A DNA stretch of 32,953 nt, from the NCBI GenBank assembly GCA_017309115.1, contig JAFLEF010000066.1, positions 1 to 32,953 of the forward strand. Direction: 5' to 3'. This DNA comes from Verrucomicrobiota bacterium. GTDB lineage: Bacteria; Verrucomicrobiota; Verrucomicrobiia; Limisphaerales; UBA9464. Below the pieces are notes generated by a model. That model saw only the letters and a list, made by a program, of their open reading frames with translations, was not told the origin of the DNA and made no database searches. This document shows, one piece after another, positions 1-13,199 of the stretch (position 1 is its first letter; every line of letters starts with the position of its first letter). A program made the translations under genes and the position numbers.

Positions 1-55
1 GGCGGAGTGATTCGTCGGTCCACAACCTTCTGGCTCTGGACCCCGCTTCGGCGGA

Positions 56-124
56 GTTTAACCCACGCTGCACCGGCTCGTCACCCACACTAGACCGCAC
101 ACCGTCGAGCCATAGGGTCTAGGC
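56..124 (+). other. Possible degenerate attC before the macrodomain cassette
   Basis: GTTTAAC at 56-62 fits the inverse core RYYYAAC. The words GGCTCG (about 75-80) and CGAGCC (about 106-111) form a short inverted repeat, and GTCTAGGC at 117-124 could be a decayed right core, similar to the decayed GTCTCGGC that ends the next short attC at 1378. The arms pair poorly outside this word. It may equally be ordinary sequence. Nothing else is recognised in bases 1-55. Confidence 0.3.
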
Positions 125-143
125 GGCTGAACACGCTCCTGCC

Positions 144-713
144 ATACAAACCAAAATCGGCAAGTCAACTCTTTGTCTCGTCACCGGCGACATCGCCAAC
201 CAGGACACCGACGCCGTTGTCACTGCCGCTCATTGGCGGTTGAACAAAGGCAACGGCACAGATGGCACCATTCACACGAAAGGCGGCCCCAAGGTTTACG
301 AGGAGTGCCGCCGCATCGGCGGTTGCCCGATTGGTGATGCGGTTATCACCACAGGAGGCAATCTCAAGGCGAGGCACGTCATCCATGCCGTTGGTCCGGT
401 TTGGCGAGGCGGCGATGAGGGCGAGCCTGAGTTGCTGGCGAGTGCATATCGACGGAGTTTGCAGGTAGCCGCGCAGCACCAGTTGCTTAGCATCTCGATT
501 CCATCCATCTCGACAGGGGCTTTTGTTTATCCCATCCGGCTCGCAGCGCCGATTGCCCTCAAGACCATTATTCAGTTTTTAGAGACGGAGCAGCACAACC
601 TCAACGAGGTTCGGATGGTCCTTTACACTCGTGAGGATGACAAGGCGTACACCATTTTCGTACAAGCCCTTGAGCAGATACTTTCAGAGAGAGTCCCGCA
701 TGGAGCCGCCTAA
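144..713 (+). CDS. Macrodomain protein (ADP-ribose-binding fold), non-standard start
   Basis: The reading frame is open from 123 to the TAA at 711-713 and gives a nearly complete macrodomain: the GDI motif at residues 15-17, the region equivalent to VNAAN...GGGVDGAIH at residues 26-40, a GDA(V)ITTGG segment, HAVGPVW, and the SISTGAFVYP loop. Macrodomains bind or hydrolyse ADP-ribose derivatives. The canonical NAAN is TAAH here and GGGVDG is GNGTDG, so ligand binding or catalysis may be altered. No ATG, GTG or TTG exists in frame before 240, and starting at TTG 240 would delete the first strand and the binding motif. The ATA at 144 sits exactly where an ATG would be expected (ATA-Q-T-K-I-G-K), so either a rare start is used or the start was lost by a G-to-A change. 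First clear cassette of the array; its stop codon lies in the following attC. Confidence 0.75.
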   Translation: MQTKIGKSTLCLVTGDIANQDTDAVVTAAHWRLNKGNGTDGTIHTKGGPKVYEECRRIGGCPIGDAVITTGGNLKARHVIHAVGPVWRGGDEGEPELLASAYRRSLQVAAQHQLLSISIPSISTGAFVYPIRLAAPIALKTIIQFLETEQHNLNEVRMVLYTREDDKAYTIFVQALEQILSERVPHGAA

Positions 714-834
714 CAAAACGGATGCACACGAACCGCCGCGCCGCGGTTCAGTTTCGAATTTTCGGGTCTTTCGGACGCTGGATTCGCAGCCAGCGCCCGG
801 TTCCGGCGGCAGTCGGTGATCCGTGTCGTTCGGC
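708..834 (+). other. attC site, long type (127 bp)
   Basis: Left core GCCTAAC (708-714) contains the macrodomain stop codon; right core GTTCGGC (828-834). The arms pair as ACGGAT, one unpaired G, then CAC, followed by CCGCCG against CGGCGG. The unpaired G in the left arm is typical of the extrahelical bases that orient attC recombination. Closely related in length and internal words to the attC at 3028. Confidence 0.85.
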
Positions 835-843
835 GTAACACGT

Positions 844-1284
844 ATGGCCAGCGCGATATCATTTAAGGATCAGTTCTTCTACGTCTCGAACCAGAGGTTT
901 CACTCCCTGATCGAGTTTGGGATGGAAGTCGGGGAGAAGACTGCCACGACTGACGAGGATAAGTCTTTTGTTTCAGACCTAAGAAAGCGGAGCGACGCCT
1001 TCTACCCGGGTTACGATTTCGCGATCGAGCGAGAGTTTCCTTCACTCATCGAAAGTAAGTTCTGGGCACGGGTGTTCTTCGATTTGGCCCACCTGATTTT
1101 TCGCCGCGAGATTGGGAATCAGGAAGACACCTTCTGGCAGTATTCCGCCGTGGGCGATGCTTACCTTTTCGGTCGCGTAATCACCAGATCGGTTCAGGAG
1201 GAGGAGCAGGCATGGCTCCCCACGACGATGGCCTCCATTGAGACCGATGCCTTTCACAAGAAGGGGGTCAACCTGAGGTTATGA
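844..1284 (+). CDS. Cassette-encoded hypothetical protein, 146 aa
   Basis: I do not recognise the family. The ATG at 844 was chosen over the in-frame GTG at 823 because the latter lies inside the attC, whereas 844 is 9 bases past the right core, the spacing seen for neighbouring cassettes. The product is soluble-looking with no signal peptide or membrane segment, is rich in aromatic residues (FFYVSNQRF near residue 11 and WQYSAVGDAYLFGR near residue 103), and has a mixed-charge middle. The TGA at 1282-1284 is 4 bases before the next attC core. Single-gene cassette; no partner is visible. Many integron cassettes encode such single-domain proteins of unknown function. Confidence 0.75.
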   Translation: MASAISFKDQFFYVSNQRFHSLIEFGMEVGEKTATTDEDKSFVSDLRKRSDAFYPGYDFAIEREFPSLIESKFWARVFFDLAHLIFRREIGNQEDTFWQYSAVGDAYLFGRVITRSVQEEEQAWLPTTMASIETDAFHKKGVNLRL

Positions 1285-1288
1285 GAGC

Positions 1289-1378
1289 CCCGAACAAACC
1301 GGCTGCACCGAACGCCGGGATCGCGTCTTGGTTGACAATCGAACACCATTGGCCCGGCGTCGGTGAGCCGGTCTCGGC
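1289..1378 (+). other. attC site, short type, with damaged right core
   Basis: Left core CCCGAAC (1289-1295). The inner part includes GTTGACAATCGAACACCATT and is nearly the same as the attC at 3940-4031. The right end reads GTCTCGGC where GTTCGGC would be expected, so the cleavage triplet is altered. The site may no longer recombine at its right core. Confidence 0.8.
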
Positions 1379-1384
1379 AGAGCG

Positions 1385-2056
1385 ATGAGCACGGCCACCA
1401 GCAACGATAGCGCCCTTGTCCGGTGGATCGAGTATGTGTTCGACCATGCGGTCACTGACCCGGCGTGGCACTGGGCTCCGGACGCCCCAGAATGGCACGA
1501 GCCTCCTGGCCAGGTAGCCACGCACATCGCCGAGACGTTCGAGCACTCTGGGCATTTGCTAGCCCGCTTCACGGACGCACAACTCAACCAAGGCTTCTGG
1601 TTTCTGGTCAGCAACAGTTGCACCGAGTTCATGTTCTCTCTAGTCGAGCTCGAGCTCCCGGTTTCCGTACGCCTTCGCGCACTCCGGTCGTTTGTCCCGC
1701 TTTTCGAGCAGGTCATGGCAGTGCGGTGTTCCCCACACCTTTCACATCTGGACGAACACGGGGCGAATCCGCTCAATGGCGCGTGCTACATGTGGTGGGA
1801 CATTCTGCCCATCCATGGGTGTCCAGAGGATCCGGCGCGTACTGAATTCGATGTTGAGGTTCTTGCCGTGTTGCGCCGGTTACTATCGATTCCACACGAT
1901 GCTTGTCGGGAGAGCGCTTTGCACGGCATCAGCGAGTGGTCCATCGACTACCCACAGGTCTCCGGGATCGTTGACGACTTTCTCGTCTGTACACCGAGCC
2001 TCCGACCTGAGCTCGCTTCCTACGCGCAGCGAGCCAAAGTCGGGAATGTCCTATGA
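1385..2056 (+). CDS. Cassette-encoded hypothetical protein, 223 aa
   Basis: Unrecognised family. The ATG at 1385 lies 6 bases beyond the attC, preceded by AGAG as a weak ribosome-binding sequence. The protein is soluble, acidic and tryptophan-rich in its first 50 residues (WIEYVFDHAV, WHWAPDAPEWHEPPG), with further predicted helices (EHSGHLLARFTDAQLNQGFW near residue 54; VEVLAVLRRLL near 158). No signal peptide. The helical, repeat-like character could suggest a HEAT-like or immunity-protein-like fold, but this is only an impression. The TGA at 2054-2056 is followed 4 bases later by the next attC core. Single gene in its cassette. Confidence 0.8.
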   Translation: MSTATSNDSALVRWIEYVFDHAVTDPAWHWAPDAPEWHEPPGQVATHIAETFEHSGHLLARFTDAQLNQGFWFLVSNSCTEFMFSLVELELPVSVRLRALRSFVPLFEQVMAVRCSPHLSHLDEHGANPLNGACYMWWDILPIHGCPEDPARTEFDVEVLAVLRRLLSIPHDACRESALHGISEWSIDYPQVSGIVDDFLVCTPSLRPELASYAQRAKVGNVL

Positions 2057-2060
2057 GATC

Positions 2061-2193
2061 GCCGAACAAAAAACAAAATCACTCGAGCGAACAGCCGCCC
2101 CGCTTTTCCGTTCGACACCAGACGGCAATTCGAGAGCGTGTTGCGCGCGCCACCGTTACTGTCGGCGGCTGTCGCTCAGTTCTGTCGTTGGCC
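2061..2193 (+). other. attC site (133 bp)
   Basis: Left core GCCGAAC (2061-2067), right core GTTGGCC (2187-2193). The arm GAGCGA-A-CAGCCGCC pairs with GGCGGCTGTCGCTC, leaving one unpaired A, and a second unpaired C occurs just outside. This is the extrahelical-base pattern expected of a folded attC bottom strand. Confidence 0.85.
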
Positions 2194-2198
2194 TGAAT

Positions 2199-2441
2199 AT
2201 GAAGATATTCGTTGCAACACTTTATCGAAATGGATTTCGGAATGCCGAATCCTTTCCGCTCGGCGCGTTTCGCACCAAAGAGAAGGCAGAAAGCGCTGCA
2301 AAAAGAGAATGCTTTGGGAGAGGTTACAAATACGGGTTTGAAATCTCGGAATTCGAGCTGGACCACTATGACGACGATGAAGACAGACCACTGGATGAAA
2401 TTGTCGTTGCACACGGAAATCCAAATTGGAACGCAGGCTGA
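2199..2441 (+). CDS. Small cassette-encoded acidic protein, 80 aa
   Basis: Begins with an ATG 5 bases after the attC right core and ends in TGA at 2439-2441. The first half has an alternating hydrophobic pattern (MKIFVATLYRNGFR) and the second half is very acidic, with DHYDDDEDRPLDE near residues 57-69. No signal peptide or membrane segment. The layout resembles small phage- or plasmid-type accessory proteins, but I do not recognise the family. A second short ORF overlaps its stop (ATGA at 2439-2443). Confidence 0.65.
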   Translation: MKIFVATLYRNGFRNAESFPLGAFRTKEKAESAAKRECFGRGYKYGFEISEFELDHYDDDEDRPLDEIVVAHGNPNWNAG

Positions 2442-2611
2442 TGAGTGCCAATTTAGTGAAGTGCGGTACAGGAACAATCACCATCGGCGGTTCAGTACGC
2501 GACCAAAACCAAATACCAAGAGCCAACCCCGCTGCTCCAGTGAACGCACCGATTGCGCCTCGGCTTTATTCCGGGCTCACTTGTCGGCGCGTCACTGAGC
2601 AGCGACGTTGA
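2441..2611 (+). CDS. Possible short ORF running through an attC, 56 aa
   Basis: An ATG overlaps the stop codon of the preceding gene, the classic arrangement for translational coupling. The first 26 codons (MSANLVKCGTGTITIGG onward) precede the attC; the remaining 30 are the attC itself, and the TGA falls in the right core. It could be a real second gene of the cassette, a peptide tail borrowed from the attC, or a chance open frame in 80 bases of non-coding sequence. Confidence 0.25.
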   Translation: MSANLVKCGTGTITIGGSVRDQNQIPRANPAAPVNAPIAPRLYSGLTCRRVTEQRR

Positions 2612-2613
2612 CC
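2521..2613 (+). other. attC site (93 bp) with clear extrahelical base
   Basis: Left core AGCCAAC (2521-2527), right core GTTGACC (2607-2613). GCTGCT-C-CAGTGA in the left arm pairs with TCACTGAGCAGC in the right arm, leaving a single unpaired C. This is one of the cleanest folds in the array. Confidence 0.85.
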
Positions 2614-2617
2614 GACT

Positions 2618-3007
2618 ATGCTCGCAACGCTTGCAAATCCCTCGCCCCTCTTCGCACTCATTGGTGCCTGGGACTGGGTCGTCATTCTGGCTGCGGCCAT
2701 TATGATTTTCGCGGCGCGTTTACTCCCGGAGCTTGCCCGCGGACTGCGTAAAGGAATCTCCGAGTTTCTCAAGGAATTGGAGAATGTGTCGCACGGCGTA
2801 GGGAGGAGTTTCGGTGGGATCTATGGAAAGTCCGCTGCCCAGGCGCTGACCCCCAACAACCAAACAGCCGAGCTCTACAATCCAGCTGTGTTTCATAGAA
2901 AGAATCCGGCCGACCAGCCTATTTGGCGAAGGCGACTCCGTCACTGGGGCCGCTCGTGGCGCGCGATAATGCGTTGGTTATTGAAGCGATTGGGTACGAA
3001 AGCTTAA
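2618..3007 (+). CDS. TatA/TatE-like membrane protein in a cassette, 129 aa
   Basis: TatA-type proteins form the pore-related component of the twin-arginine system, which exports folded proteins. Here residues 16-35 (IGAWDWVVILAAAIMIFAAR) form the short membrane helix, followed by LPELARGLRKGISEFLKEL (about 36-55), the amphipathic helix with the conserved LPE-AR-L-KGI-EF pattern. The family's Phe-Gly hinge is Phe-Ala here. The C-terminal 70 residues are strongly basic (RRRLRHWGRSWRAIMRWLLKR) and not typical of TatA. The ATG at 2618 is 5 bases after the attC. No tatB or tatC is near, so it may assist or modify the host Tat system, or be a membrane-active protein that reuses the TatA shape. Confidence 0.7.
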   Translation: MLATLANPSPLFALIGAWDWVVILAAAIMIFAARLLPELARGLRKGISEFLKELENVSHGVGRSFGGIYGKSAAQALTPNNQTAELYNPAVFHRKNPADQPIWRRRLRHWGRSWRAIMRWLLKRLGTKA

Positions 3008-3027
3008 AGCTCAGTGAAAACAAAGTC

Positions 3028-3154
3028 GGCCAACAAAATCGCTGCACACGAACCGCCACCACCCGTTTCGATTCCGGGCTCGGCGGATCATAGGACACTG
3101 GATTCGCTGCCAGTGCCCGGCTCCGGCGGCGGTCGGTGAGCTCTGACGTTGGGT
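3028..3154 (+). other. attC site, long type (127 bp)
   Basis: Left core GGCCAAC (3028-3034), right core GTTGGGT (3148-3154), a perfect GTTRRRY. GCT-G-CAC pairs with GTGAGC, leaving one unpaired G, then CGCC pairs further in. The internal words GCACACGAACCGCC and GGTCGGTGA are shared with the attC at 708, so the two belong to one subtype. Confidence 0.88.
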
Positions 3155-3170
3155 GACAATCGAACGCGCT

Positions 3171-3599
3171 ATGAAAACTCAAGGCAGCATTGCGATCGCA
3201 TCCCTGTTCATCTCAGTCGCGGGCTTACAGGCCAGGGACATTGAAAAGGGCAAGCCGGCAGCGCCGCCGAACGTGAAGTCAGTTGCCGGCAGCTATTACT
3301 GCGGCGACGGTCTTGGCTACAACGTGACACTCACGCTGAAGGAGAACGGCACGTACTCCGCCGAGTGGCACGGTTGCCTCGGCAAGTATGGAGATGCCTC
3401 GGGAAGCTGGAAGCTGTCCGACAAGCAGATAGCGCTTATCCCGAAAACGGAGCGAGACATGATGAAGGGCCACCTGAAAACGTTGGATGTTTTGGAGTAC
3501 AAGGGCGGCTGGGTTTTCGTTCGCGCAGATGATAGAGATTTTTACGATAAGCACGGTGTTTCCCGTTACTCGTGCTTCCAAAAACGAGACCAACAATGA
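3171..3599 (+). CDS. Cassette-encoded secreted protein, 142 aa
   Basis: An N-terminal signal peptide (MKTQGSIAIASLFISVAGLQA, residues 1-21) precedes a small domain with three cysteines and a beta-rich pattern (GYNVTLTLKENGTYSAEWHG; ASGSWKLSDKQIALIPK), resembling lipocalin- or META-like small periplasmic domains. ATG 3171 was chosen over an in-frame GTG at 3153 because 3153 is inside the attC core. The TGA at 3597-3599 is followed 10 bases later by the next attC. Probably periplasmic or secreted; function unknown. Confidence 0.75.
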   Translation: MKTQGSIAIASLFISVAGLQARDIEKGKPAAPPNVKSVAGSYYCGDGLGYNVTLTLKENGTYSAEWHGCLGKYGDASGSWKLSDKQIALIPKTERDMMKGHLKTLDVLEYKGGWVFVRADDRDFYDKHGVSRYSCFQKRDQQ

Positions 3600-3609
3600 C
3601 AACAACACC

Positions 3610-3695
3610 GCCCAACAAGCCAGATGCAGTGAACCCGGCGATCGCGCTCCGATTGACAATCGAGGATCAGGGGCGCCAGGTCTGAAGCGTTGGGC
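3610..3695 (+). other. attC site (86 bp), perfect cores
   Basis: Left core GCCCAAC (3610-3616) and right core GTTGGGC (3689-3695) are exact reverse complements and both fit the consensus. The inner part contains GATTGACAATCGA as in the short attC type. Shortest of the well-formed sites. Confidence 0.9.
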
Positions 3696-3702
3696 GTAAA
3701 CA

Positions 3703-3936
3703 ATGTCCCATCCCCTTTACAGCTTATTACGCAGCTTGGAAGACGCGCACATCCATTTCACCCTGGCTCGCAATCGTGAGGACACTGTTCTTGTGACGAT
3801 CACTCTGGTCGGTGAGCGTGTGGAGGTTGACGTTTTTGACGATGGACACATGGAAGTATCGCGTTTCCCAGGTACCGAAAACATCGTCGGCGGTGAAGAG
3901 TTGATCCATGACATCATCCAGGACAATCGAGATTAG
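3703..3936 (+). CDS. Small conserved cassette protein, 77 aa
   Basis: The sequence MSHPLYSLLRSLEDAHIHF at the start and the central VGERVEVDVFDDGHMEVSRF (about residues 36-55) resemble a group of small uncharacterised proteins that I recall from integron cassettes and plasmids; this recollection is not a database result. The fold would be alpha-beta with a helix then a four-strand sheet. No signal peptide, no catalytic motif. The ATG is 7 bases after the attC and the TAG at 3934-3936 is 3 bases before the next. Function unknown; small antitoxin or immunity roles are possible but unsupported. Confidence 0.8.
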   Translation: MSHPLYSLLRSLEDAHIHFTLARNREDTVLVTITLVGERVEVDVFDDGHMEVSRFPGTENIVGGEELIHDIIQDNRD

Positions 3937-3939
3937 ATT

Positions 3940-4031
3940 GCCCAACAAGCCGGCTGCACTGAACACCGGGATCGCGTCTCGGTTGGCAATCGAACACCAT
4001 TGGCCCGGCGTCGGTGATCCGGAGCGTTAAT
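3940..4031 (+). other. attC site, short type (92 bp)
   Basis: Left core GCCCAAC (3940-3946), right core GTTAATC (4025-4031). Arms: CCGG-CTG-CAC against GTGATCCGG and ACCGGG against CCCGGC. Nearly identical to the attC at 1289 through the centre, but with an intact right core. Confidence 0.9.
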
Positions 4032-4034
4032 CCT

Positions 4035-4658
4035 ATGAATCCCGAGAACAGCGAGTATCCCGAGAAGGATTTCCCTTGGACGTTCTATTTTAACGGGGAG
4101 GCCATGCCCAAATGGGCAGCATGCTGGAGCATGGCTGGTGTGGGCAGTTTTGTTCATCCAGAAAGAGACGCGTGCGAGGACGTATCCGAGAGGGACATTT
4201 ACATCATCATGTGCACGATTGATCACATTGGGGTGGAGAGCGCGGACCCAGACATTTTCCTGTACGCCGTTCAAGAGGTGCTTTACCTGCTCTTGTACCA
4301 CAACGATCGGGCACTCGCCTCGATTTCGGAACATCCGCGCGGGGGGAGTTCAGCGCGGGAGATTTTCACCGGGTTGGTGGGGGGCGCTTTCCGCATGCGC
4401 CAACTCGTGCAAGATCAGCGCTGCGCGTTCTGGACTACGGGATATGAGGCAGATAATGACAAGCTGAAGGAATCTATGCGCCGCGCCGCTCTTCCACCTG
4501 CGTCACAGGACTCCGCGCCACCACCGCACTTGGCTCGTATGCGCTCAATGGCCCGGTCTTACCGTGAGCAGCAGATCAGCCGTCTTCATCGCCTAGCTCA
4601 GTCTGGGCGCCTCGACAAGGCCACAAGAAAGCATTTGAATGAACTACGGATGGACTAA
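4035..4658 (+). CDS. Cassette-encoded hypothetical protein, 207 aa
   Basis: Unrecognised. The ATG at 4035 is 3 bases after the attC; the alternative in-frame start at 4014 lies inside the site. Residues 1-45 are aromatic-rich (FPWTFYFNGEAMPKWAACW), the middle is helical (DIFLYAVQEVLYLLLYHNDR near residue 76), and the last 45 residues form a basic helical tail (MARSYREQQISRLHRLAQSG) that may bind nucleic acid or a partner. No signal peptide. The TAA at 4656-4658 lies within the left core of the next attC, a sign that gene and site have moved together. Confidence 0.8.
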   Translation: MNPENSEYPEKDFPWTFYFNGEAMPKWAACWSMAGVGSFVHPERDACEDVSERDIYIIMCTIDHIGVESADPDIFLYAVQEVLYLLLYHNDRALASISEHPRGGSSAREIFTGLVGGAFRMRQLVQDQRCAFWTTGYEADNDKLKESMRRAALPPASQDSAPPPHLARMRSMARSYREQQISRLHRLAQSGRLDKATRKHLNELRMD

Positions 4659-4748
4659 CCAGATCACTGGACCGAACGCGGGCGGGCCACGTCAGCTTCC
4701 TATTCGGACGCCGCTGGCCGCCCGCGTCGGCCAGTTCAGTCGTTAGGT
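4653..4748 (+). other. attC site (96 bp)
   Basis: Left core GACTAAC (4653-4659) contains the stop codon of the preceding gene; right core GTTAGGT (4742-4748) is a perfect GTTRRRY. Long arms GCGGGCGGGCCA against TGGCCGCCCGC, with CACTGG against CCAGT further out, make a strong imperfect hairpin. Confidence 0.9.
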
Positions 4749-4788
4749 GACTAGTGCGCGTCTCGTGAAAATGAACCCGAATGAAGTC
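4749..4788 (+). other. Near-empty cassette body (40 bp)
   Basis: Only 40 bases separate two attC sites. The one open frame is ATG at 4771 to the TAA at 4792-4794, encoding seven residues (MNPNEVA), with the stop inside the next left core as for neighbouring genes. It is either a cassette without a gene or the last scrap of a deleted one. Confidence 0.6.
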
Positions 4789-4949
4789 GCCTAACTCGCG
4801 CGCTTCGCTCGAACCGCCACCGCCCGTTTCGGTTTCGAGCTCGCCGGATTATCGGACCCCGGATTCGCTGCCGCCGCCCGCATCCAGCGGCAGTCGGCGA
4901 ATCAACGTCAGAGGCGGCTGCCTCCCGTCGCTGACCTTGATCGTTATGC
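4789..4949 (+). other. Damaged or hybrid attC site
   Basis: Left core GCCTAAC (4789-4795) and left-arm words (GAACCGCCACCGCCCG) match the long attC type at 3028. The matching right arm ends near 4905 with GTCAGAG (4907-4913), a decayed core. A second tail resembling the last 24 bases of another attC follows (about 4926-4949), ending GTTATGC. Two part-sites may have been joined, or the first core may have decayed beside an old junction. Confidence 0.6.
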
Positions 4950-11243: not shown

Positions 11244-13199
11244 ATGTTCCTCCGCGAATGGTTCGACGACAACTCGACCGAACGCTTCTCCATCCGAACC
11301 CGGGCCGCTGGACCCGCCGGCAAACTTCCCCTTACCGAGGAGCAACTGCGCGAGGCTCCCAGCGGGGATCTGTTCGGGTTGACCCAAAATGCGGGCATGG
11401 GCTGGGAACCGAGTGAAGTGGGCCGCGACGCCTTTCTCATTCTCAGCACCCTGGGCGGACTGCGCGCGCCCGATGGCAAGCCCATCGCGCTCGGCTATCA
11501 CACCGGTCACTGGGAACTGGGACTGCAAGTCAAAGCCGCCGCCGAGGAACTGCGCCGACTGAAAACGGTTCCCTTCGCGGGTTATGTGTCCGATCCCTGC
11601 GACGGCCGCACCCAAGGCACCGTCGGCATGTTCGATTCCCTGCCCTACCGCAATGACGCCGCGATCGTGTTCCGGCGGCTCATCCGTTCCCTGCCCACGC
11701 GCCGCGGCGTGCTCGGCGTGGCGACCTGCGACAAGGGACTTCCCGCCATGCTCATGGCCCTCGCCGGCACGCCGAACCAGCCGACGATCCTCGTTCCCGG
11801 GGGCGTCACGCTGCCGCCGGAAACCGGGGAGGACGCCGGCAAAGTGCAAACCATCGGCGCGCGCTTCAGTCATGGAATGCTGACGCTCGACGAAGCGGCG
11901 GAACTCGGCTGCCGCGCCTGCGCCAGTCCCGGCGGCGGATGTCAGTTTCTGGGAACCGCCGCCACGGCCCAGGTGGTCGCCGAAGCCCTGGGCTTGGCCC
12001 TGCCGCATTCGGCCCTCGCTCCCAGCGGCGAACCCATCTGGCGCGATCTGGCCATCCAGTCCGCGCGGGCGCTCGTGGACCTCGCGCAACGCCGTCTCAC
12101 CACCCGCGACGTCCTGACCGACGCGAGCATTCGCAACGCCATGACGGTGCATGCCGCGTTTGGCGGTTCGACCAACTTGTTACTGCACATTCCCGCCATT
12201 GCCCACGCTGCCGGACTTCGCCGACCCACCGTGGACGACTGGACGTTGATCAACCGTCGCACGCCCCGACTGGTCAGTGTGCTGCCCAACGGTCCCATTC
12301 ATCATCCCACGGTCCGCGTGTTCCTCGCCGGTGGGGTTCCGGAGGTCATGCTACACCTTCGCGCCCTCGGACTGCTGGAGTTGGACGCCCCCACCGTGGC
12401 CGGACAATCTTGGGGCGAAGTCCTCGCCGCCTGGGAACAAGGACCCCGTCGCACCCGTTTCCGGCAGGCGCTTCAAGAACTCGACGGCGTGGATCCCGAC
12501 GACGTCATCCTGCCTCCCGAACGAGCTCGGGAACGCGGACTCACCAGCACCGTCACCTTCCCGCGCGGCAACTTGGCCCCCGAAGGTTCCGTCATTAAAT
12601 CCACCTCCATCGACCCCAGCGTGGTCGACGCCGATGGCGTGTACCGCCACGAAGGTCCGGCGCGAATCTTCACCCGGGAACGCGCCGCCATCGCCGCCAT
12701 CAAGCGCGGGGAAATCAAGGCCGGCGACGTGTTGGTGCTGATGGGCGCCGGTCCCCTGGGAACCGGCATGGAAGAGACCTATCAGCTCACCAGCGCCCTG
12801 AAACATCTACCCTTCGGCAAACATGTCGCGCTCATCACGGACGCGCGGTTCAGCGGGGTCAGCACCGGCGCCTGCCTCGGCCATGTCGGTCCCGAAGCGC
12901 TGGCCGGCGGACCCATCGGACGCCTGCGCGCGGGCGATCGAATCCGACTCGAGATCAATCGTACCACGCTCAGCGGCTCGGTGAATTTGGTTGGGGTTGA
13001 AGGACGAGACCTCACCCCGGAGGAAGCCGCGACCCTGCTGGCGGAACGCCCGATGCACCCAGACCTCGCGCCGCATCCCGATCTCCCCGACGACACCCGG
13101 CTGTGGGGTGCGCTCCAAGCGGTCGGCGGCGGCACGTGGGGTGGTTGTGTCTACGATGTGAACTCCATCGTGGAACGGCTCACCGCCCGCGTTCCCTGA
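11244..13199 (+). CDS. yjhG: D-xylonate dehydratase, YjhG/YagF type, 651 aa
   Basis: Full-length match, from memory, to the YjhG/YagF branch of the IlvD/Edd dehydratases (655 residues in E. coli), starting with the characteristic [16 protein letters not shown] (about residues 39-54). These cytoplasmic enzymes dehydrate sugar acids, here D-xylonate to 2-dehydro-3-deoxy-D-pentonate, with an Fe-S cluster. Cluster ligands are expected in [10 protein letters not shown] (about residues 115-124), ATCDKGLPA (about 161-169) and [11 protein letters not shown]. Further conserved blocks: [56 protein letters not shown] and [11 protein letters not shown] at the end. No aldolase, xylose dehydrogenase or transporter is adjacent, so its pathway partners must be elsewhere. 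Confidence 0.92.

Follow-up and report, generated by a model that had tools for sequence, protein, structure and literature searches.

An integron cassette array in a Verrucomicrobiota genome with many attC clusters and one intact integron integrase

Positions 120-4913 of the DNA analysed here very probably form a true integron cassette array, one of 24 clusters of attC sites in a genome that also holds one intact integron integrase, integrase relics and 14 attI-like sites. This DNA (hereafter the window) is an entire contig (C75, 32,953 bp) of the genome G000, a Verrucomicrobiota assembly of 7.53 Mb in 111 contigs that is 95.3% complete, with 3.69% estimated contamination. An integron cassette normally consists of a small gene with an attC site at its 3' end; the bottom strand of the site folds into a hairpin with unpaired bases, and the integron integrase (IntI) recombines it between the G and the TT of its core, against another attC or against attI. 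Taken on its own, the window array is close to certain to be an integron cassette array.

Results

We searched for attC sites with a covariance model (R1) trained on 34 attC candidates from seven other contigs of G000 and on no site of the window. The GTT of the core and several bases of the L box were invariant in all 34 training sites, and RNAalifold, applied to a MAFFT alignment of these sites, gave 16 pairs, 9 of them with compensatory changes. Searching the window with R1 returned nine attC sites, all in one orientation, with scores of 37.9-79.6 bits (E values of 3.6e-8 to 2.1e-19), and the only other match in the 33 kb at E<=1 was the shadow that the site at 708 casts on the reverse strand, at 14.9 bits. 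A control search of 68 loci of other bacteria (1.10 Mb) gave four matches up to E=1, the best at 19 bits. The sites show the R and L boxes, the GTT core and a hairpin with unpaired bases, and small genes on the same strand stand between them, with an ATG-initiated gene of 77-223 residues in seven of the nine window cassettes. The nine attC sites of the window are real. Rfam models, at their gathering thresholds, gave no match in the window. A plain regular expression for the R box and a lax hairpin scan were both noisy, matching throughout the window, and were dropped in favour of the covariance model.

Base pairing in the hairpin was also evident across the genome. In an alignment of 149 distinct attC rows, which was fitted to R1 and is hence biased towards it, and which includes three reverse-strand shadows, 94.8% of the pair cells can pair and 13 of the 16 pairs vary on both sides. 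The covariation of these rows was 0.424, compared with 0.142 for shuffles and at most 0.053 for slid alignments.

Using R1 on 28 stretches picked from earlier searches, we obtained 158 matches at E<=0.01, of which the best 150 were aligned; removal of three reverse-strand duplicates left the 147 sites counted here. A direct search of the whole genome gave 121 matches at E<=0.1 with 150 of 7,948 candidates scored, and the genome total is therefore uncertain. The 147 counted sites fall into 24 clusters, 21 of which have at least two sites, and 144 of the 147 lie in such clusters. In all 22 loci with two or more sites, the sites face one way once three reverse-strand shadows are dropped. Ten clusters, of which nine are multi-site, have over 1.5 kb of contig beyond them on each side. 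Open ends occur at the proximal side of nine clusters and at the distal side of five.

An initial annotation of the window had proposed a cassette array of attC sites alternating with small same-strand genes in a Verrucomicrobiota genome, to be checked with an attC covariance model. Our own model recovered nine sites in the region claimed, and this view of the array was borne out, an integron integrase and attI being present elsewhere in the genome. The initial annotation had also considered that the palindromes might occur throughout non-cassette DNA; the lack of further matches in the window and the clustering across the genome are at odds with this. Instead of standing alone, the array is one of 24 clusters.

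As assembled, G000 contains one intact intI gene, together with relics. The intact gene, on contig C3 (C3:5670-6764), encodes 364 residues and is divergent from an array of 11 attC sites on the other strand, with attI beside it. The protein scored 415-417 bits against TIGR02249 (cut-off 265), and its residues 44-363 align with the structure of Vibrio cholerae IntI4 (2a3v; E 5.4e-86). The alignment of this tyrosine recombinase runs through the IntI-specific insert, at the position which we take the insert to occupy. The nearest named integrases, 67% identical, come from metagenome-assembled genomes of Verrucomicrobia, and we therefore accept the assignment to Verrucomicrobiota. Extension of the contig to the left had been suggested as the way to find intI and attI; both exist on C3, but neither is on the window contig.

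Integrase relics were found on four contigs. That on C108 is 93% identical over residues 1-40 and then stops, and the others are on C29, C34 and C46. In the C34 relic (L157 5178-5510), the final 20 codons of an integron integrase remain, and an IS110-type fragment leads into them. The C46 relic, near 126 kb (L044 14046-14507), is an open reading frame (ORF) of 153 residues with an IntI-like N-terminus that covers positions 2-78 of TIGR02249 (44 bits), is 35-38% identical to two other integrases, and adjoins a tyrosine-recombinase-like ORF of 433 residues on the other strand. It stands beside the attI-like site at 125.8 kb, a member of the second family described below, and is divergent from the array.

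Tyrosine recombinases beside attC on C44 and on C46 (near 115 kb) were considered as IntI and rejected: they scored about 100 bits against TIGR02249, with the stretch before position ~240 missing, and their neighbours are transposase- or resolvase-like ORFs (named by reading, with no family search). The C44 recombinase belongs to a repeated element (L049 4200-7221) with a resolvase-like ORF of 690 residues. Parts of this element are found again at contig ends, proximal to the arrays on C54 and C72 and next to the attI-like site on C10. On C46 (L044 2870-5184), a tyrosine recombinase of 305 residues and a transposase-like ORF lie ~70 bp from an attC; they seem to have been inserted between a cassette gene and the attC belonging to it.

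The 14 attI-like sites of G000 belong to two families, eight of type 1 and six of type 2, and none lies on C75. A BLAST search with the leader of the C3 array matched C108 (87% over 502 bp, running into the broken intI start) and C81 (93.6% over 236 bp, with no intI match beside it). Both matches end at the same base, so that the attI homology stops at the crossover. The type-1 core, GTCGGTGAATCAACTGTT, occurs in G000 at five places exactly, at two with one mismatch (C108 and C70) and at three with two mismatches, and the reversed pattern gave no match in the genome. From the two-mismatch places only C67, which stands before an attC cluster, was counted, giving eight sites. The sequences diverge after GTT in C3, C81, C108, C86, C10 and C26, whereas C70 and C67 continue alike. 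No convincing attC lies near the C10 and C26 sites, and only an 18-bit attC lies near that of C70.

The type-2 leader, of ~210-280 bp, is 74-83% identical to its C36 copy and ends in CAGTCGTAGATTAAACG followed by TT, after which the sequences diverge. It is present on C36, C80 and C95 and three times on C46 (none with the reversed control), and each copy has an attC 260-355 bp downstream. Of the two families together, eleven sites have an attC 200-420 bp after them, namely those on C3, C81, C108, C86, C67, C36, C80 and C95 and the three on C46. Because the IntI N-terminal fragment stands beside a C46 copy, the type-2 family appears to represent the attI of a second integrase that is now broken; seven integrase queries gave no integrase match in the flanks (~2.6 kb each) of the other five type-2 sites.

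Both leader families carry repeated inverted motifs, TGTCGGTATATT, ATATACGAACCGG and TGTCGGACGATT (L009 5392-5622; L043 4708-4914; L155 2538-2749), the centres of which differ between copies. We propose that these may be extra integrase-binding sites or an operator. On C46 (L061 10333-10546 and 13336-13595), two type-2 attI-like sites lie inside one attC cluster, as if they were tandem platforms.

Comparison of the 147 cassettes, listing pairs that match at E<=1e-20 over at least 120 bp outside attC, revealed copies of cassettes in different arrays. Whole cassettes are common to C3 and C81 (593 of 593 bp, 95.5%), to C3 and one C46 array (C46a; 464 of 464 bp, 93.1%), and to C108 and a second C46 array (C46b; 438 of 438 bp, 97.0%). 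C46a and C95 share a cassette over about 515 bp (92.5%), and one cassette is duplicated at 100% within C46b. The cassette shared by C3 and C46a stands first behind a type-2 attI on C46, and this pair and the C108/C46b pair link arrays behind attI-like sites of types 1 and 2. The remaining pairs listed are partial (80-94%) or consist of leader, insertion sequence (IS) or mobile-element sequence. Since the neighbours of shared cassettes were not listed as shared, movement cassette by cassette fits better than duplication of blocks.

We then asked where the clusters that are open at a contig end break off. Six of the 14 open cluster ends lie at a fixed distance from the crossover: C3, C80, C86 and C108 end 125-126 bases after the G of GTT (126 from the core GTT in C80), and in C17 and C68 the final base of GTT is base 127 of the contig. 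These six ends match what would be expected from an assembly graph with k-1=127 in which one attC is joined to several cassettes, or one cassette to several attC sites. A rough binomial estimate for these positions was 2.7e-7, calculated from 15 ends (C10 included) with a distance window and a cassette length of our own choosing. The comparison excluded the last 99 bases of C57 and the last 88 of C72. Fixed duplicates would give the same picture. Three other open ends are IS ends, and an attempt to join contigs through overlap of 16 ends found, as the only shared 20-mers, the IS end on C75, C20 and C92.

The cassettes of the window lie on the forward strand, and their attC sites are given here in top-strand coordinates, the model matching the bottom strand. 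The first gene (123-713) encodes a macro-domain protein resembling O-acetyl-ADP-ribose deacetylases, with matches from position 240 on to PF01661 (E 3.8e-34) and to NF001664 (148 bits, below its cut-off of 200). By eye, its frame is open from 123, with no ATG, GTG or TTG before 240. It is followed by attC 1 (708-834, 76.9 bits). The second and third cassettes consist of a gene of 146 residues (844-1284) with attC 2 (1289-1378, 56.6 bits) and a gene of 223 residues (1385-2056) with attC 3 (2068-2193, 54.5 bits). The fourth encodes a DUF7336 protein of 80 residues (2199-2441; PF24024, 31 bits, cut-off 25), an ORF chosen for its Pfam match over another, out-of-frame ORF, and ends in attC 4 (2521-2613, 50.7 bits). 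The fifth gene (2618-3007) encodes 129 residues with a TatA/Hcf106-like N-terminus (PF02416, 37.1 bits, cut-off 21; TIGR01411, 33.2 bits, below its cut-off of 53.9) and precedes attC 5 (3028-3154, 79.6 bits).

The sixth cassette, with a gene of 142 residues (3171-3599) and attC 6 (3610-3695, 37.9 bits), is 95.3% identical over 534 of 541 bp to one in the C68 array. A gene of 77 residues (3703-3936) with attC 7 (3940-4032, 63.9 bits) and one of 207 residues (4035-4658) with attC 8 (4653-4748, 74.3 bits) come next; the 207-residue protein has 50 database relatives at E<=0.001, one of which is named as Verrucomicrobiota. The last site of the array, attC 9 (4789-4913, 42.7 bits), follows attC 8 by ~40 bp with no gene before it, and has a degenerate R' core. 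Five genes, those of cassettes 2, 3, 6, 7 and 8, had no Pfam match above the cut-off and matched nothing in NCBIfam or PADLOC. With regard to a role in defence, PADLOC gave no match for the eight window cassette proteins. Among 125 cassette proteins genome-wide, a set that excludes doubtful ORFs of first cassettes, 24 Pfam families were matched by one member each, including HicA, Barstar, Imm32, Imm35 and SUKH. Eleven PADLOC models were likewise matched by one member each, too few for a defence argument.

The initial annotation had placed the array at 56-4949. The nine attC sites at 708-4913 lie within this interval; the region near 56 scored 3.1 bits with filters off, and an attC there was ruled out, window 1-119 being the end of an IS110/IS1111-type element. 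The same end is found at six places in the genome: window 1-124 is repeated at the ends of C20 and C92 and inside C36, C34 and C54, and the copies on C75, C20, C92, C36 and C34 are 98-100% identical. The repeat terminates in GGGTC, followed by T(A/C)G in six of six copies and by T(A/C)GGC in three of six, with one side of each insertion seen whole. The sequence after the repeat, TAGGC in the window, reads as the rest of an attC R' core, that is, the core minus its first two bases. Opposite this side, every insertion is either truncated or cut off altogether, and the fit to the attC core is one-sided.

The copy on C34 includes an 85-residue fragment corresponding to the N-terminus of an IS110-type transposase (PF01548, 22 bits, below the cut-off of 29). 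A whole-genome search for this transposase family (DEDD type) gave no match, and no full copy of the IS was found. The element in the window appears, from its flank, to sit in an attC core, and the array very likely continues leftwards past the contig end. IS1111-attC elements were reportedly described by Tetu and Holmes in 2008 and by Post and Hall in 2009, both cited in PMC11187229; the window element resembles them in having an IS110/IS1111-type end with a flank that reads as part of the attC R' core, and differs in that only ends and an N-terminal transposase fragment were found here. On C36 (L043 5925-6210) and C54 (L040 5508-5770), the IS fragment breaks off at one and the same internal position, where it abuts an attC core; the cassettes that follow differ between the two contigs.

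About 6 kb beyond the distal end of the array, the window carries a gene for an IlvD/Edd-type dehydratase (11244-13199). In Xanthomonas, intI adjoins ilvD, according to PMC12444791; the proximity seen here is probably a coincidence.

Relatives of G000 also carry attC sites. R1 matched in 33 of 39 genomes of the genus, family and order (G000 included), with counts that are lower bounds, R1 having been trained on G000 and at most 90 candidates scored per genome. An IntI relative at E<=1e-20 was present in 19 of the 39 genomes, and attC without such an integrase in 15. One genome, G028, gave at least 51 attC matches, spread across many contigs, but no IntI relative at that threshold. The type-2 leader was found in 4 of 59 genomes, G000 among them; in the congener G004, three type-2 cores are followed by attC, and no IntI match reached E<=1e-20.

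Discussion

The usual model of an integron places a single integrase in cis with one attI and one array, and treats attC clusters that lack an integrase as degraded integrons. Like the sedentary chromosomal integrons of Vibrio and Xanthomonas, G000 has structured attC sites with a GTT core and small same-strand genes mostly without a family match, and on C3 an integrase divergent from its array with attI between them. Unlike those integrons, it spreads its cassettes over 24 clusters instead of one array and has 14 attI-like sites; as assembled, the window cluster lacks a dedicated intI. This cluster resembles a CALIN (an attC cluster lacking an integrase, a term used in IntegronFinder 2, PMC9024848) in having at least two attC sites and no neighbouring intI as assembled, its proximal side being a contig end. 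Loss of intI, one origin proposed for CALINs in PMC8618304, is seen on C108. According to PMC9024848, a CALIN has almost 6 attC on average and a complete integron 14. G000 differs from a simple CALIN in its 147 counted sites in 24 clusters and its 11 attI-like sites 200-420 bp before attC, one of which (C3) has an intact intI.

Verrucomicrobiota are already listed among integron-bearing phyla in PMC8618304, and CALINs, their origin by decay and mobilisation in trans are in print in PMC8618304 and PMC12444791. Our literature searches found no report of several integrase-less attI-headed arrays in one genome, nor of one genome with two attI-like families (14 copies), 24 attC clusters and a single intact integrase, which is not proof of absence.

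We interpret these observations as an integron spread over many platforms and possibly served in trans by the C3 integrase, in which the window array would be a part without its own attI or intI as assembled, its proximal end running into an IS110/IS1111-type element. The structure and covariation of the attC sites, the homology of the integrase, the attI junctions and the copies of cassettes in different arrays are shown by the sequences; we infer that the C3 integrase may act in trans on the window array and others and may still work. Such service is plausible and, for the type-2 platforms especially, a proposal. In its full form, with one integrase acting in trans on attI platforms of two families across the 7.5-Mb genome, cassettes circulating between about two dozen clusters, and alternative joins at the crossover in the sequenced population, this explanation is one that we rate as less likely than not, its probability being lowered because the relic of a different integrase stands beside one type-2 site.

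Several points weigh against this account of the array and its genome as a whole. The window contig has neither intI nor attI and starts in an IS end. A different integrase seems once to have belonged to the type-2 family, so its sites may not be usable by the C3 enzyme. The cassette copies could reflect separate capture from outside and not movement between arrays. Some attC sites score weakly, at 37.9 bits, or, like that at 4789-4913, have a broken core; IS elements interrupt arrays, and the macro-domain gene of the first cassette lacks an ordinary start codon. Draft assemblies, moreover, inflate the number of integrase-less clusters, as noted in PMC9024848.

A serious rival to service in trans is a largely fossil system, in which integrons were duplicated or acquired long ago, their integrases decayed and nothing moves now. 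The integrase relics on C108, C29, C34 and C46, the IS insertions, the weak or degenerate attC sites and the 15 of 39 genomes with attC but no IntI match agree with it, but one integrase is intact, the copies at 92-100% identity are bounded at cassette ends, and in six cases a contig ends 125-127 bases away from the crossover, which is where an assembly fork would put the break (judged without reads). We regard the fossil account as somewhat unlikely. That the window array is the distal part of the C3 integron, split off by the assembler, is improbable. The C3 array does exit its contig distally where the window array enters proximally, in compatible orientations. Nine clusters, however, are proximally open and distally internal, against five that are distally open, and because an attI-like site precedes the contig end in C67, which is among these nine, the tail of C3 could be at most one of the other eight. 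The window also begins with the IS end common to C20 and C92, whereas C3 ends at an attC crossover, and the ends of C3 and C75 have no 20-mer in common.

A mixed bin, with arrays from several organisms, is very unlikely. The estimated contamination and the 111 contigs leave room for it, but the near-identical IS end ties together C75, C20, C92, C36 and C34, the attI leader and cassettes are common to C3, C81, C108 and C46 at 84-97%, the G+C content of the flanks is 0.595-0.661 in the 24 loci, out of 25, that have enough flank to be measured, and two clusters lie on one 235-kb contig. We give next to no credence to the notion that the palindromes are terminators, repetitive extragenic palindromic-like repeats or miniature inverted-repeat transposable elements. 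Some sites are similar in sequence and palindromes do arise by chance (the lax scan gave a mean of 1.95 matches per strand of 5 kb in 20 shuffles), yet the single orientation within loci, the invariant GTT, the conserved unpaired bases, the compensatory changes and the presence of an integrase and attI in the same genome all argue for attC.

If the integron of G000 is indeed distributed over platforms served by one integrase, attI-headed arrays without an integrase would be working outposts rather than debris, a state that would be shared by the congener G004, in which three arrays are headed by type-2 attI and no integrase was detected. Genomes of the order commonly carry cassette pools, as their attC matches indicate. 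G000 allows one to test whether a single integrase feeds many platforms and how such clusters arise, and also whether different attI leaders change which cassettes are expressed.

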